From: Acidimicrobiales bacterium
GTDB taxonomy: Bacteria > Actinomycetota > Acidimicrobiia > Acidimicrobiales > VFJN01
Reading direction: 5' to 3'
Assembly (NCBI GenBank): GCA_016936035.1
Contig: JAFGPU010000442.1
Coordinates: forward strand, 1-10,548
Length of the DNA: 10,548 nt
Position numbers and translations under genes: made by a program. Each line of letters opens with the position of its first letter. The stretch's first letter is position 1. The notes under the pieces were generated by a model, which worked only from the letters and a program-made list of their open reading frames with translations, was not told the origin of the DNA and searched no databases. This document shows positions 388 through 10,548 of the stretch, in pieces.

Positions 388-3078
388 GTGGACGACCCGA
401 TCCCCACCGCCGAGGTGCCCCTCCCGCCCGGCTACCCGGCGGAGTGGGACGCGGACGTCGTGCTGTCCGACGGGGGCACGGTGCGCATCCGGCCCATCCG
501 CCCCGACGACGCCGACCGCATCGTCGACTTCCACGGCCGCCAGTCGCCCGAGAGCATCTACTTCCGCTACTTCACGCCCCACCCCCAGCTGACCGACGAC
601 GAGGTCGCCCACCTCACCAACGTCGACTACGTCGACCGCATGGCGTTCGTCGCCCTGCGCGACGACGTCATGATCGGGGTCGCCCGCTACGACAGGTGGC
701 CACTGCGGTCCGAGGCCGAGGTCGCCTTCTTCGTCGACGACGCCCACCGGGGACGCGGCATGGCCACCCTGCTGCTCGAGTACCTGGCCGAGGCGGCCCG
801 CCGGGCCGGCATCAGCGCGTTCACCGCCACCGTGCTGCCGACCAACCAGCGCATGGTGGGCGTGTTCCGGGCGGCGGGCTTCCAGGTGCGCAGCACCTTC
901 GAGGAGGGGGTCATCGAGGTGCATCTCGACCTCCAGCCGACGCCCGACGCCATGGCCGCCATCGAGTCGCGCGCCCAGCGAGCCGAGGCCGAGGCCGTGC
1001 GCCTGCTGCTGGCGCCGGGCTCGGTGGCGGTCGTCGGCGCGGGGCGCGACCGCCACGGCGTCGGCCATGCCGTGCTGCGCAACCTGCTGGTGCACGACGT
1101 GAACGTGCCCGTCCACCCCGTCAACCCGCATGCCGACCACGTGGGCGGCGTGCCGGCCGTTCCGTCGATCGGCGACGTCGCAGGGCCCGTCGACCTGGCC
1201 ATCGTGGTCGTGCCGGCCGTCGAGGTGCCGGGCATCGTCGAGGAGTGCGGGCGCAAGGGCGTCAAGGCGGTGATCGTCATCTCCGCCGGCTTCGCCGAGT
1301 CCGGGCCCGAGGGAGCGGCGCTGTCGGCCGCCACGTTGCGGGCGGCCCGGCGCTTCGGCGTCCGGTTGCTCGGGCCCAACTGCCTGGGCGTCATCAACAC
1401 CGATCCCGCCATCCGGCTGCACGCCACGTTCGCCACGCCCGACCCCCGGCCCGGCCCGGTGGCGCTGCTCTCCGAGTCGGGCACCATCGGCGGCGCCCTG
1501 CTCGAGCGCATCGGCGAGGCCGGGTTGGGCGCCTCGTCGTTCGCCGCCATCGGCAACCGGGCCGACGTGTCCGCCAACGACCTGTTGCAGTTCTGGGCCG
1601 ACGACGACCGCACCGAGCTGGTCCTGCTCTACCTCGAGTCGTTCGGCAACGCCCGCAAGTTCAGCCGCATCGCCCGCGCCCTGTCGCGCACCAAGCCCAT
1701 CGTGGCGGTGAAGAGCGGGGGAGCGGCCCGGGCCTACCCCGACGAGGGGGGCGAGCTGAACGCCGACACGCTGCAGGCCCTGGTCGAGCAGACCGGCATC
1801 ATCCGGGTCGACACGCTCGCCCAGCAGCTCGACGTCGCCCGCGTGCTGGCCTGCCAGCCGCTCCCCGAGGGACGCAGGGTCGCGCTCGTCGGCAACGGCG
1901 GCGGGTCGCTCGCACTGGCCGCCGACGCCTGCGTCGACGCCGGCCTGACGCTGGCCACCGTGGGCGAGGGCGTGCACGACGCCGTGGGAGGCGAGGGCGG
2001 CAGCGGCGCCCGGTTGCGGGCCAGCACCGTCGACCTGGGCTTCGAGGCGGGAGGCGACGACCTCACGCGGGCCCTCGAGGCGGTGCTGGCCGACGACGGC
2101 GTCGACAGCGCGCTCGTGGTCTGCGCGCCTGCGCCCCGGCAGCCGACGTCCGACCTGGTGGCGGCCATCGCAGCTGCCCGGTCCCGCCAGCCGGGCAAGA
2201 CGCTGGTGGCGTGCGTGTTCGGGCCCCATCCCACCACGATCCGGCCTCCGGGCGCCGCCGAGGTGCCCGTCTTCGACTTCCCGGACGACGCGGCGTACGC
2301 GCTCGGTCGCGTCACGCGCTACGCCCGCTGGCGCGCCGCGCCCGAGGGCGACAGGGTCGTCCCCGCCGGCGCCGCGCCCGACGAGGCCCGCCGTCACGCC
2401 ACCGCCGCGATCGCCGGCGGGCACGAGGGTCAGCTCCCCACCGGCGCCGCGGCCGACCTGCTGTTCGCCGCGGGGTTGCCGATGGCGGCGTCACGGGTCG
2501 CGCCCGACGTCGCCGCCACGGTCGCGGCGGCCGCCGACGTGGGGTATCCGGTGGCGGTGAAGTCGGTGGGGCGCAGCCGGCTGGCCAAGACCGAGGCCGG
2601 CGGTGTCGCGCTCGACGTGCACGACGAGGCCGAGCTGCGGGCCACGCTGACCCGCATGGCCCACGCACTCGGCGACGCCGTCTGGCCGGTGGTGGTGCAG
2701 CAGATGGTCGAACCGGGGGTCGACGTGGCCATCGGCGTGGCCGACAGTCCGATGGTCGGTCCCGTCCTCACAGTCGGGCCCGGCGGGGTCGCCACCGAGC
2801 TCGCTGTTGCGCAGGTCCACGTGCTCCCGCTCACCGACCTCGAGGCCCGGCGGTTCGTCGCCGGGCTCGACCTCGGTGCCCTGCTCGACGCCCCGGCGCG
2901 CGCCCACCTCGAGGACCTGCTGCTCCGCGTGGGCGTCCTCGTCGACGAGGCCCCCGAGATCGCGAGCATCGAGCTGAACCCGGTCATCGTGTCGCCGGAG
3001 GCCGCGGCCATCGTCGACGCCAAGGTGACGGTGGCACCGGTCGACCGCGACCCGTTGCCCCCCGTGCGCCGCCTCTGA
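388..3078 (+). CDS. Pat-type protein lysine acetyltransferase: N-terminal GNAT fused to acyl-CoA-synthetase-like domains
   Basis: The product has 896 residues. Residues about 30-180 form a GNAT domain with the acetyl-CoA pyrophosphate loop R121-G-R-G124-M-A126. Residues about 208-300 are a CoA-binding Rossmann domain (SVAVVGAGRDRHGVGHAVL). A succinyl-CoA-ligase-like region follows, with GPNCLGVIN at 329-337 and SESG at 362-365. A C-terminal ATP-grasp domain covers about 685-885. ADP-forming acyl-CoA synthetases carry a phosphorylated histidine in an SHTGSLAG-like motif; the matching stretch here is YPDEGGELN at 450-458, with no histidine. The ATP-grasp LHKSD-type motif is also altered, to LAKTE at 732-736. 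The body is therefore probably a sensor or regulatory scaffold, and acetyl transfer by the GNAT is the likely activity. In characterised Pat proteins the target is acetyl-CoA synthetase, which is inactivated. The GNAT is N-terminal, the reverse of the enterobacterial PatZ order. The start is GTG without a Shine-Dalgarno sequence. An active ADP-forming synthetase is unlikely. Confidence 0.88.
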   Translation: MDDPIPTAEVPLPPGYPAEWDADVVLSDGGTVRIRPIRPDDADRIVDFHGRQSPESIYFRYFTPHPQLTDDEVAHLTNVDYVDRMAFVALRDDVMIGVARYDRWPLRSEAEVAFFVDDAHRGRGMATLLLEYLAEAARRAGISAFTATVLPTNQRMVGVFRAAGFQVRSTFEEGVIEVHLDLQPTPDAMAAIESRAQRAEAEAVRLLLAPGSVAVVGAGRDRHGVGHAVLRNLLVHDVNVPVHPVNPHADHVGGVPAVPSIGDVAGPVDLAIVVVPAVEVPGIVEECGRKGVKAVIVISAGFAESGPEGAALSAATLRAARRFGVRLLGPNCLGVINTDPAIRLHATFATPDPRPGPVALLSESGTIGGALLERIGEAGLGASSFAAIGNRADVSANDLLQFWADDDRTELVLLYLESFGNARKFSRIARALSRTKPIVAVKSGGAARAYPDEGGELNADTLQALVEQTGIIRVDTLAQQLDVARVLACQPLPEGRRVALVGNGGGSLALAADACVDAGLTLATVGEGVHDAVGGEGGSGARLRASTVDLGFEAGGDDLTRALEAVLADDGVDSALVVCAPAPRQPTSDLVAAIAAARSRQPGKTLVACVFGPHPTTIRPPGAAEVPVFDFPDDAAYALGRVTRYARWRAAPEGDRVVPAGAAPDEARRHATAAIAGGHEGQLPTGAAADLLFAAGLPMAASRVAPDVAATVAAAADVGYPVAVKSVGRSRLAKTEAGGVALDVHDEAELRATLTRMAHALGDAVWPVVVQQMVEPGVDVAIGVADSPMVGPVLTVGPGGVATELAVAQVHVLPLTDLEARRFVAGLDLGALLDAPARAHLEDLLLRVGVLVDEAPEIASIELNPVIVSPEAAAIVDAKVTVAPVDRDPLPPVRRL

Positions 3079-6726: not shown

Positions 6727-7998
<1,272 letters not shown>

Positions 7999-8057: not shown

Positions 8058-8063
8058 ACGCTA
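8058..8063 (-). promoter_or_regulatory. Possible -10 element of citrate synthase
   Basis: The - strand reads TAGCGT, overlapping the TAG stop codon of the LysR gene. It predicts a start near 8050 and a leader of about 50 nt made mostly of the tandem repeat. The -35 region is not recognisable. Confidence 0.35.
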
Positions 8064-9002
8064 GTGCCGCGACCGGGGGTCGGTGGACCCTCGGGCGTCG
8101 GGCGTCGGGTGGACGCCGTCCTGCCGGGATGCCATGACCAGGTCCCGGATGGCGGCGCGCACCGCCCGCGCCGGCGCGGACGGCCGGCCACGGCGGGGCA
8201 GGGCCAGCCCGACCGATCGGGGAGCGAGGCCGTCGACCGCCACCCGCCGGCACGCTCGCTCGATCCACGGGGGCGCCGCCGTGGTGGGCACCATGGCGGG
8301 ACCGAACCCCTCGAACGCAAGGGAGGTCAGGAGGCGGATGCCGTCGATCTCGGCCAGGGCCCGCATCTCCAGGCCGATGCGGGCGGCCTGGTCGTCGAGC
8401 TGGTCGCGGAAGGCGGTGCCCACCGGCTCGAGGAGCAGCTCGTGCTCGCCGAGGTCGGACAGCGCGACGCGCGCCTGCGCGGCGAGAGGATGGCCGAGGG
8501 GTGCCAGGATGATGCGGTCCTCGTCGAAGAGCGGCTCGGTGGTGAGCTCGTGCTCGGCGGTCGGCAGGTTGATGACGGCCAGGTCGAGCGTGTCGGCCAC
8601 GACCTGCGGTATGAGCGAGGTCGTGGTGGCGTCGATGATGACCACGTGGACCTGGGGGTGGCGCTCGGCCATGAGCGCGAGCAGGCGGGGGACCAGCCAG
8701 CGGCCGGTGGTGCCGATGCAGCCGAGGCGGACCGTGCCGGACACCTCGTGCAGCATCGATTCCACGTCTGACCGGAGCGACTCGATCTCGTGGTGGATCC
8801 GGCGTGCCCGCGCGAGCACGACCTCGCCCTCCTCGGTCAGCTCCCCGGTCGCGCGGTCGACCAGGCTGGCGCCGAGGTCGCGCTCGAGGCGGGCGATGTG
8901 GGTCGACACGTTGGACTGGACGGTGTGGAGCCGCCGGGCGGCGGCCGAGAACGACCCTGCTTCGGCGACCGCCGTGAGGGCGGCGAGCTGGCGGAGATCC
9001 AT
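8061..9002 (-). CDS. LysR-family transcriptional regulator
   Basis: The product has 313 residues, standard for the family. The winged helix-turn-helix is residues 1-60, with the recognition region SFSAAARRLHTVQSNVSTHIARLE at 17-40 and the wing near RATGELTEEGE. A linker helix (61-88) leads to the effector-binding domain (about 90-290), beginning GTVRLGCIGTTGRWLVPRLL. LysR proteins act as tetramers that bind dyads near the promoters they control and respond to a small metabolite. The ligand is not predictable here. The gene precedes citrate synthase and the MDR gene on the same strand, with 62 bp to citrate synthase, and is divergent from the small RNA candidate. Regulation of itself, of the RNA or of citrate synthase is inferred from position only. 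The ATG at 9002 starts exactly at the conserved MDLRQLAAL. Confidence 0.94.
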   Translation of the reverse strand: MDLRQLAALTAVAEAGSFSAAARRLHTVQSNVSTHIARLERDLGASLVDRATGELTEEGEVVLARARRIHHEIESLRSDVESMLHEVSGTVRLGCIGTTGRWLVPRLLALMAERHPQVHVVIIDATTTSLIPQVVADTLDLAVINLPTAEHELTTEPLFDEDRIILAPLGHPLAAQARVALSDLGEHELLLEPVGTAFRDQLDDQAARIGLEMRALAEIDGIRLLTSLAFEGFGPAMVPTTAAPPWIERACRRVAVDGLAPRSVGLALPRRGRPSAPARAVRAAIRDLVMASRQDGVHPTPDARGSTDPRSRH

Positions 9003-9010
9003 CGCTCACA

Positions 9011-9016
9011 ATGATG
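9011..9016 (-). promoter_or_regulatory. Possible -10 element of the LysR gene
   Basis: The - strand reads CATCAT, one base from TATCAT, 8 nt before the ATG at 9002. The spacing matches the leaderless starts elsewhere in the window. There is no good ribosome binding site. Confidence 0.25.
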
Positions 9017-9022
9017 ACAGCT

Positions 9023-9053
9023 ATCGGTAACAACTGTTTGACGAATTGCCGAT
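9023..9053. promoter_or_regulatory. Dyad between the LysR gene and the small RNA, candidate LysR operator
   Basis: ATCGGTAA (9023-9030) and TTGCCGAT (9046-9053) form an 8-bp inverted repeat with one mismatch and a 15-nt spacer. The segment is clearly AT-richer than its surroundings. Its position 20-50 bp upstream of the LysR start is where LysR proteins usually bind to repress themselves and control a divergent promoter. It also spans the putative -35 of the small RNA. Binding is inferred. Confidence 0.4.
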
Positions 9054-9066
9054 GCGGCTGCACACT
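9038..9066 (+). promoter_or_regulatory. Putative promoter of the 6C-like RNA
   Basis: TTGACG at 9038-9043 is a near-consensus -35. After 17 nt, CACACT at 9061-9066 could serve as the -10, matching TANNNT except for the first base. Transcription would start near 9073, just before the first stem-loop. This is the best -35 element seen in the window. Confidence 0.5.
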
Positions 9067-9072
9067 GTCCTC

Positions 9073-9204
9073 GACAACGAGCGGCAGACGGGACCCCCCA
9101 CCGTTCCGCTCATCAGACAGTGTGCCGCTGACGGATCCCCCCTCTCGATGCGCAGCACCTGCCAGGAGCCGACCGATCCACCCGCGGTCGGCTCCTCTCG
9201 TTTT
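9073..9204 (+). ncRNA. 6C-type small RNA with two C6 loops and a terminator
   Basis: Two consecutive hairpin regions each present exactly six cytosines: C6 at 9094-9099 and C6 at 9137-9142. The first is formed by GAGCGG/CCGCTC (9079-9084 with 9106-9111) and ACGG/CCGT (9088-9091 with 9101-9104). The second is closed by GCTG/CAGC (9127-9130 with 9153-9156) plus CG/CG. An intrinsic terminator follows at 9164-9204. This matches the 6C RNA described across Actinobacteria (called B11 in Mycobacterium tuberculosis), whose C-rich loops pair with G-rich regions of target mRNAs to regulate them. No protein gene is convincing in this gap. The 5' end near 9073 is inferred from the promoter, and a covariance-model search has not been run. 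A cis-acting leader of the downstream gene is the main alternative. Confidence 0.72.
9164..9204 (+). terminator. Intrinsic terminator of the 6C-like RNA
   Basis: A perfect 12-bp stem, AGGAGCCGACCG (9164-9175) with CGGTCGGCTCCT (9185-9196), has a 9-nt loop and is followed by CTCGTTTT with four Ts at 9201-9204. The T-run exists only on the + strand side. No + strand protein gene lies upstream, which is itself evidence for a small transcript ending here. Confidence 0.75.
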
Positions 9205-9248: not shown

Positions 9249-10548
9249 ATGACCGCCGCCGCCATCTTCGATCTCGATCGCACGCTGCTCCGCGGGGCGA
9301 GCGGGCCCGTGCTCAGCCACGCCCTGCGAGACGCCGGGGTGATCTCGGGCCGGCCCCTGCCCGGTGAGGGGCTCGTGTACCGGTTCTTCGACCTGGTGGG
9401 CGAGACGCGGCCGTCGATGATGCTCACCAGGCAGGCCGCCCGGTTCGCGAAGGGGTGGCGGCGAGACCAGGTGCTCGACGCCGGCAACCTCGCCGCCGAC
9501 CAGCTCGCCGAGGCCGTCCAGCCGTTCGCCCGCCCGATCATCGATGGCCACCGCGCCGCCGGTCGCCCGCTCGTCCTCGCCACCACGACGCCCGACGACA
9601 TGATCCGCCCCCTCGCCGAGCGGTTGGGCTTCGACGACGTGGTGGCCACGCGGTACGGCGTCGACGGCGACGGCCGCTACGACGGCACCATCGACGGCGA
9701 GTTCGTGTGGGGCAAGGGCAAGCTGCGAGCGGTGCGCGCGTGGGCGGCCGCCCACGGCGTCGCGCTCGACGAGAGCTACGCCTACAGCGACTCCTACTAC
9801 GACAACCCCCTGCTCGGAGCGGTCGCGCACCCCGTCGCCGTCAACCCGGACGCCCGGCTGCTCGCCCTCGCCACGGTGCGACGGTGGCCGGTCGTGCACC
9901 TCGACGTGCCGGCGGGCGTGCCCAAGGTCCCGGTGCTCAACGTCGAGCCGCAGCGCGTCGTGCAGCTGGTGGTGCGACCCGAGCTGGCGCCGTGGGTGCG
10001 CTTCGACATCGACGGCGTCGACCGCCTGCCCGACGCAGGCCCGGCCATCATCGTCGCCAACCACCGCAGCTACTTCGACCCGGTCGCCCTCGGGGTCACC
10101 TTCGCGCGCCGGGGTCGCGCCGTGCGCTTCCTCGGCAAGCGCGAGGTGTTCGACGCCCCGGTCGTGGGCCAGGTGGCTCGGGCGCTCGGCGGCATCCGCG
10201 TCGACCGGACCAGCGGGTCGGACGAACCCCTGGTCGAGGCGGCGGGCGCCCTCGCCAGCGGCGAGCTCGTGGCCATCCTGCCGCAGGGGACGATCCCCCG
10301 CGGGCGGGCGTTCTTCGAGCCGGAGCTGACGGGGCGGTGGGGGGCGGCGCGCCTGGCGGCCATGACCAAGGTGCCCGTCGTCCCCATCGGGCTCTGGGGC
10401 ACCGAGGCCGTGTGGCCCCGCTCCGAGCGGTTGCCCCGCATCTGGAACGTCACGAACCCACCGGTCGTGCGGGTACGGGTGGGGGAGCCGGTCGAGCTCA
10501 AGTACCGGTCGCCGCGAGCCGACACGCGCCGCATCATGGACGCCATCG
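9249..10548 (+). CDS. HAD-IB phosphatase / PlsC-type acyltransferase fusion (partial)
   Basis: The gene runs off the right edge; 433 codons are visible. Residues 1-215 form a HAD phosphatase-like domain: motif I F-D8-L-D10-R-T12 (nucleophile and general acid), motif II around LATTTPD (110-116), and motif IV SDSYYDNPLL (180-189). Residues about 240-433 form a lysophosphatidic acid acyltransferase domain: N-H272-R-S-Y-F-D277 is the catalytic HX4D, GGIRVDR (314-320) is the substrate motif, and PQGTIPRG (345-352) stands where EGTR-type sequences are usual. The acyltransferase half should acylate lysophosphatidate at sn-2 to make phosphatidate at the membrane. The same domain order occurs in Mycobacterium tuberculosis Rv2483c, annotated as bifunctional. 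The role of the phosphatase half is uncertain. A C-terminal extension may lie beyond the window. The ATG start has an adjacent -10. Confidence 0.9.
   Translation, partial: MTAAAIFDLDRTLLRGASGPVLSHALRDAGVISGRPLPGEGLVYRFFDLVGETRPSMMLTRQAARFAKGWRRDQVLDAGNLAADQLAEAVQPFARPIIDGHRAAGRPLVLATTTPDDMIRPLAERLGFDDVVATRYGVDGDGRYDGTIDGEFVWGKGKLRAVRAWAAAHGVALDESYAYSDSYYDNPLLGAVAHPVAVNPDARLLALATVRRWPVVHLDVPAGVPKVPVLNVEPQRVVQLVVRPELAPWVRFDIDGVDRLPDAGPAIIVANHRSYFDPVALGVTFARRGRAVRFLGKREVFDAPVVGQVARALGGIRVDRTSGSDEPLVEAAGALASGELVAILPQGTIPRGRAFFEPELTGRWGAARLAAMTKVPVVPIGLWGTEAVWPRSERLPRIWNVTNPPVVRVRVGEPVELKYRSPRADTRRIMDAI

Follow-up and report, generated by a model that had tools for sequence, protein, structure and literature searches.

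The stretch of Acidimicrobiales DNA analysed here (10,548 nucleotides of contig JAFGPU010000442.1, hereafter the window) probably carries a stand-alone small RNA gene of 6C-like type, which is paired with its own LysR regulator and whose C-rich loops would lower the translation of many mRNAs. In the proposed mechanism, the LysR protein would bind a GAT-N7-ATC site located between both genes and activate the sigma-70-type promoter of the RNA, as is suggested by the position and conservation of this site. The resulting RNA of ~130 nt would expose C6 loops on stable hairpins and end at an intrinsic terminator, and, by analogy with 6C/B11 RNA and NfeR1, the C-loops may pair in trans, and redundantly, with G tracts at ribosome-binding sites, such that translation of many mRNAs would be lowered. 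6C RNAs are common in actinobacteria. The main novelty here lies in the LysR partner and in a site that goes with the promoter of the RNA, in that a C-loop RNA comes with an apparent sensor of its own in a group whose scanned members match no Rfam model for it. In the open-access literature, no paper tying 6C RNA to a LysR protein has been found (the sole match being LysRS), nor has anything been found on 6C RNA or a C-rich sRNA under the stem Acidimicrobi-.

The predicted RNA occupies positions 9073-9204 on the + strand, where two CCCCCC runs are read directly from the sequence at 9094-9099 and 9137-9142, both within hairpin loops. Hairpin 1 extends over 9079-9111 and hairpin 2 over approximately 9127-9156, and they are followed by a terminator-like hairpin with a short T-run at 9164-9204 (12 pairs, 9164-9196). 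Reading of the sequence has borne out the two C6-loop hairpins, the promoter-like sequence and the 12-bp terminator-like hairpin of the preliminary description, as well as its statement that this terminator has no upstream + strand gene to serve, the nearest upstream gene being that of a LysR-family regulator on the other strand (313 aa, 8061-9002, - strand; Pfam HTH_1 and LysR_substrate). The terminator-like hairpin has a 9-nt loop, ATCCACCCG, in which the C-run is broken; directly 3' of the hairpin stands CTCGTTTT, and the T-run amounts to only TTTT (9201-9204), preceded by CTCG. Upstream on the + strand, a -35 box TTGACG (9038-9043), aligned with TTGGACA or TTGACA in relatives, is followed after a spacer of 17 nt by a weak -10 box CACACT (9061-9066; 3/6 identity to TATAAT), the same column of which reads CATACT, CACAAT or CATAAT in relatives, and boxes and spacer together place the predicted RNA start near 9073. 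A scanner for consensus promoters and terminators, run at its own thresholds, has reported nothing at the RNA locus. An inverted copy of the promoter's GCACACTGTC, reading GACAGTGTGC, is located between hairpins 1 and 2 of the RNA (window 9060-9125) and may be due to chance or be an element at the DNA level.

Folding of the predicted transcript 9073-9204 has given a z of -3.6, with 1 of 200 shuffles being equally good. The minimum-energy fold leaves five of the six C unpaired in each C6 run and also pairs the 5' end of the RNA with its 3' tail. Hairpin 1 and the terminator are kept in the centroid fold and hairpin 2 is missing from it, so that the pairing of hairpin 2 is the least certain of the three. 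A fold from 9060 (z = -6.5) has been set aside as overstated, because it includes the promoter and owes its strength to pairing with the -10 region.

The same arrangement has been found repeatedly among relatives. A protein search with the LysR regulator yielded a first sample of 48 loci, 36 of which are close relatives, mostly labelled Acidimicrobiales, Acidimicrobiia or Actinomycetota (L023 is labelled Acidobacteria). Alignment and hairpin counts refer to a set of 37 loci that includes the own genome and two relatives (L001-L003) and leaves out L035 and L039, whose upstream regions are rearranged and hold no C-loop hairpin. At least one hairpin of at least 5 pairs with a loop run of four or more C is present in 37/37 of these loci, a run of five or more in 34/37, and the mean of 2.14 C4+ loop hairpins per locus compares with 0.22 in 60 dinucleotide shuffles of each. 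In a second sample, which consists of whole genomes and overlaps the first in part, a LysR ortholog at E<=1e-60 has been detected in 88 of 296 genomes of the class (own genome included), all of them from the window's order, and at 75 of these 88 loci, in 19 of 22 families of the order, a C5+ loop hairpin lies upstream and divergent from LysR. The preliminary description had named the link to a LysR gene and a citrate synthase operon as a new context should it recur, and it does so at these 75/88 loci for LysR and at 31/36 loci for a citrate synthase gene following LysR. No C5-loop hairpin has been found upstream of the other 13/88 orthologs, comprising families f16, f35 and f54 (10 loci) together with L068, L069 and L070; as all sampled members of three families are among them, the LysR protein can evidently exist without the RNA.

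Hairpins have also been counted with respect to the operator (GAT-N7-AT[CT]) in the genome sample. C5+ loop hairpins number 2.10 per operator-bearing locus, compared with 0.08 in 25 shuffles each, and at least one occurs in 71 of the 72 operator-bearing loci (the exception is L069), while among the 16 loci lacking an operator match within 70 nt a C4+ loop hairpin is seen in 5 and a C5+ one in 4. The number of hairpins is variable: across 123 distinct upstream regions, counting only folded hairpins that retain at least 5 of 8 pairs, none has been counted in 15, one in 24, two in 49, three in 34 and four in 1. The longest C-run in the first hairpins of relatives is at least 5 in 77/84 and at least 6 in 50/84. 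A single C-loop hairpin with C-runs of 6 to 8, the operator being kept, is seen at L014, L019, L020, L034, L036 and L052, and at the locus of Aquihabitans sp. G128 (L018) one C5 loop is accompanied by two C4 loops. Such natural variation in the number of C-loops (1 to 3) amounts to a ready experiment on loop redundancy.

The stems of these hairpins change with compensation while the C-loops stay. When 20 relatives with two hairpins are aligned by MAFFT, at least one two-sided change that preserves the pair is seen in 14/16 terminator pairs, which supplies the compensatory changes for which an alignment of this gap had been suggested at the outset; the first hairpin is too poorly aligned by MAFFT for modelling. 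Arms have additionally been anchored on the loops in the 123 distinct upstream regions and compared with 500 re-deals of the 3' arms. The paired fraction is 0.81 for first hairpins (84), 0.83 for middle hairpins (35) and 0.98 for last hairpins (84), as against 0.40, 0.44 and 0.47, respectively, when the 3' arms are dealt anew, an excess that is partly built in, since folded hairpins with fewer than 5 of 8 pairs had been filtered out. The fair result of this comparison is the variety of the pairs, all four Watson-Crick pairs being found at inner positions of the arms, and for the structure as such weight has been given to the shuffles and to the terminator covariation. Behind the last C-loop hairpin, a T-run of at least 4 follows within 16 nt in 30/75 loci, compared with a frequency of 0.038 in random windows of the same regions, and at least 4 T occur in the next 8 nt in 45/75 loci. 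That GC-rich hairpins have merely arisen by chance within an intergenic gap is conceivable in a GC-rich genome in which both the -10 box and the T-run are weak, but recurrence in 19/22 families, the excess over shuffles and the covariation of 14/16 terminator pairs make this explanation exceedingly improbable.

The predicted LysR operator, GAT-N7-ATC, lies at 9013-9025, with its centre ~54 nt 5' of the predicted RNA start, which is a usual place for LysR activation sites. GAT-N7-AT is present in 37/37 aligned loci (L021 having been realigned to an internal start for this count) and its final C in 35, and 72/88 genome loci have GAT-N7-AT[CT] at no more than 70 nt from the LysR start. A C4+ loop hairpin is present at 76 loci, although L094 probably owes its C4 match to chance; 70 of the 76 show site, -35 and -10, with the boxes matched loosely and LysR starts extrapolated from tblastn. 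The distance from the start of the site to the -35 of the RNA is 25 nt in 54/70 and 24 nt in 11/70 of these loci; the distance from the site to the LysR start is 13 nt in 39/70 and ranges from 16 to 99 nt in the remainder. This near-fixed spacing on one side and variable distance on the other indicate that the site goes with the RNA promoter, and at L093 and L116, where a wider gap separates LysR from the RNA, one copy of it remains beside the RNA.

A search for a pattern composed of operator and -35, allowing at most 3 mismatches, has given a single match in the own genome and likewise a single one per genome in 14 of the 24 others tested, each time beside LysR; at that stringency it has not been matched in the other 10 of the 24, and the reversed control has given no match. 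As the full operator-promoter site has thus been found only at the small RNA, one may tentatively postulate a module of one regulator and one RNA, in which a LysR sensor conserved in much of the order would exert most of its effect on the cell by C-loop pairing, a reading for which we would claim somewhat less than an even chance and for which it matters that the pattern includes the -35, so that LysR sites of other kinds would be missed. If true, the module would constitute an actinobacterial counterpart of LsrB-NfeR1, reached by convergence or by remodelling of 6C, and its signal may have a connection with the citrate synthase gene behind LysR.

The best sequence match of the LysR protein among solved structures is OxyR. 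Across 121 aligned LysR relatives, no column carries cysteine in more than 30% of the sequences, and the OxyR pair C199/C208 is absent; sensing of the OxyR redox type has consequently been judged unlikely. As signal, one might guess at a metabolite from the citrate cycle or from acyl-CoA metabolism. The citrate synthase gene is located at 6727-7992 of the window, and in 17 of the 31 loci (of 36) in which such a gene follows LysR, the two are separated by 1.4-1.7 kb; the one such gap tested, that of L023, contains a gene with a carboxyltransferase domain. Gene order differs in L021, and citrate synthase has not been found within the locus sequence examined in L032, L035, L038 and L039.

On its other side, the RNA is followed by a HAD-IB hydrolase/acyltransferase gene (9249-10547, + strand, running past the window end; TIGR01490 at 135 bits with a cut-off of 98.3, plus an Acyltransferase domain). 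The hairpins could accordingly be read as a transcription attenuator or riboswitch-like leader of this gene, as the terminator lies in between and the HAD gene, running in the direction of the RNA, starts no more than 420 nt away from the start of LysR in 46/120 loci (window included), these 120 being the loci with enough sequence from the two partly overlapping samples. Against a leader stands that the RNA persists although genes of different kinds, on either strand, come next. The next gene is an Rrf2 regulator in L008 and L029, TauE in L018 and an AIR-synthase-type gene in L012, and it is convergent in L019 and L036 (glutamate synthase) and in L023 (aconitase); frames without Pfam match have been judged convergent by codon composition in L009, L017 and L033. 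Moreover, 4 of the 46 loci (L068, L069, L070 and L090) possess LysR and HAD and no C5-loop RNA, which leaves the leader a very unlikely explanation. In these four loci, LysR and HAD-IB are separated by 39 to 126 nt that hold no C-loop RNA, and remnants of the operator are retained in L069 and L070.

With respect to known families, the preliminary description had assigned the RNA to the 6C type. Its C6-loop anatomy and its position divergent from a LysR gene have held, but a match to the Rfam 6C covariance model has been obtained neither in the window nor at 40 relative loci. No Rfam model recognises the window RNA, and RF01066 has not been matched at 20 relative loci at the gathering score nor at 20 further loci up to E 1. 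The Rfam scan of the window and all 40 loci has produced a tRNA and two sub-threshold ar14 matches, at 18.3 bits in the window and 28 bits in L137, with a gathering score of 58.8. As the Rfam 6C model does not recognise it, the RNA has not been filed as 6C and the label has been softened to 6C-like. Canonical 6C has likewise not been found in 40 genomes of the class, 10 of these from the order, by an RF01066 search that is not very sensitive, since among 14 control genomes only Corynebacterium glutamicum matched, below the cut-off. In the phylum sample, RF01066 matches occur in 10 of 149 genomes, 6 of them above the gathering score. A further RNA of two hairpins, the loops of which carry C6 and C7 and the tail of which is rich in T, has been noticed in another family of the phylum (L166, G225:C1:65038-65129, minus strand); it is not among the RF01066 matches, and no LysR or HAD homologs are found in 3,092 bases around it.

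Whether the window RNA is a true 6C ortholog that has become too divergent for the Rfam model, LysR control being the local novelty, is a question of its own, and we incline towards this origin with modest confidence. The RF01066 loci (6C RNA, B11 in mycobacteria) have the same anatomy, with C5+ loops on at least two stable hairpins, both RNAs are actinobacterial, and the two C6-loop hairpins used as a criterion for 6C are present in the window, whose terminator hairpin loop is ATCCACCCG and not a C-run, the last C-loop hairpin being expected to act as terminator in 6C. A homolog of the window HAD-IB adjoins 7 of the 10 RF01066 matches, within about 260 nt; at the other 3 (G223, G180 and G233) no match to the window HAD domain is adjacent to the RF01066 locus. 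This neighbour is the genome-best match to the window HAD domain in 6/10 and the second best in G135, and no HAD homolog has been found at 12 distant LysR loci, the majority of them in other phyla. The shared HAD-IB neighbour favours descent from 6C, and the lack of canonical 6C in the 40 class genomes is in line with it. This HAD-IB gene has also been described beside Ms1 RNA (PMC9130861), and mycobacterial 6C has been placed one gene from Ms1 (PMC9569102).

A covariance model built from the 20 relatives only, R1, has pairs solely in the terminator hairpin. R1 finds the window and, with scores of 20.0-27.7 bits, the 6C site of 9/10 RF01066 loci, and it gives no match at 12 control loci, but because it models only the terminator hairpin and its matches across the 149 phylum genomes outside the order look mostly like ordinary terminators, it has been dropped as proof of homology. 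In G180 and G233 the best R1 match is not the 6C gene, and no HAD homolog has been found at 13 off-target R1 loci. Orthology is further weakened by the failure of the Rfam 6C model to recognise the RNA, by the fact that just 6/10 RF01066 matches exceed the gathering score, and by an opposite orientation, as canonical 6C points away from HAD whereas the window RNA points towards it. The window RNA and its counterparts in relatives also differ from 6C by their divergent LysR gene and conserved site and by a number of 1 to 3 C-loop hairpins. The other side of the question, an independently evolved C-loop RNA that is convergent with 6C and ar14/NfeR1, seems rather unlikely to us: C-runs on freely changing stems have arisen elsewhere, as in ar14 of another phylum, and weak scores with ar14, but none with 6C, have been obtained for the window and L137; against it stands the HAD-IB neighbour shared with 6C. 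Overall, common descent with 6C appears the more probable history.

The 6C-like RNA with its own LysR regulator resembles regulator-RNA pairs from other bacteria. OxyR activates the small RNA OxyS from a divergent gene, and the window LysR family differs from OxyR in being devoid of C199/C208. The VtlR-AbcR and OxyR-OxyS RNAs are not known to share the structure of the window RNA. VtlR is reported to control small RNAs directly (PMC7486931), and in VtlR-AbcR, as is predicted for the window pair, a LysR protein activates a small RNA. A similar mode of action is known from NfeR1 of Sinorhizobium, for which three hairpins, anti-Shine-Dalgarno loops, divergent stems, redundant loops and activation of transcription by the LysR protein LsrB have been described (PMC10746234). 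NfeR1/ar14 (RF02344) has in common with the window RNA three hairpins, C-rich loops, divergent stems and, as predicted here, redundancy of the loops and activation by a LysR protein; its loops, however, carry the motif CCUCCUCCC where C-runs are found here, and it is alphaproteobacterial. Scoring below the gathering score and having C-runs in place of CCUCCUCCC, the window RNA has not been placed in ar14/NfeR1. The locus may represent a second phylum in which a LysR protein drives a multi-loop C-rich RNA, and it makes it possible to test the idea that such RNAs act, under the control of a sensor, as brakes on G-rich ribosome-binding sites. In mycobacterial B11/6C, compensatory mutations have shown that each of the C-loops is able to repress a six-G leader (PMC10470900).

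Among possible targets, the neighbouring genes have been considered and rejected, as no clear excess of G tracts is seen before the starts of citrate synthase, HAD or LysR: G5+ runs near starts occur in 2/41, 4/51 and 2/122 cases, respectively, and C5+ runs in 6, 2 and 0. Genome-wide, G6-N3-12-ATG (both strands summed) is commoner than the reversed pattern in 10/10 genomes, one of which (G081) is not among the LysR-positive genomes, a comparison to be read with the differing frequencies of ATG and GTA in mind; in G343 the excess is only slight (16 vs 13). Elsewhere in the window, at 388-3078, a GNAT acetyltransferase domain is fused ahead of an NDP-forming acyl-CoA synthetase.
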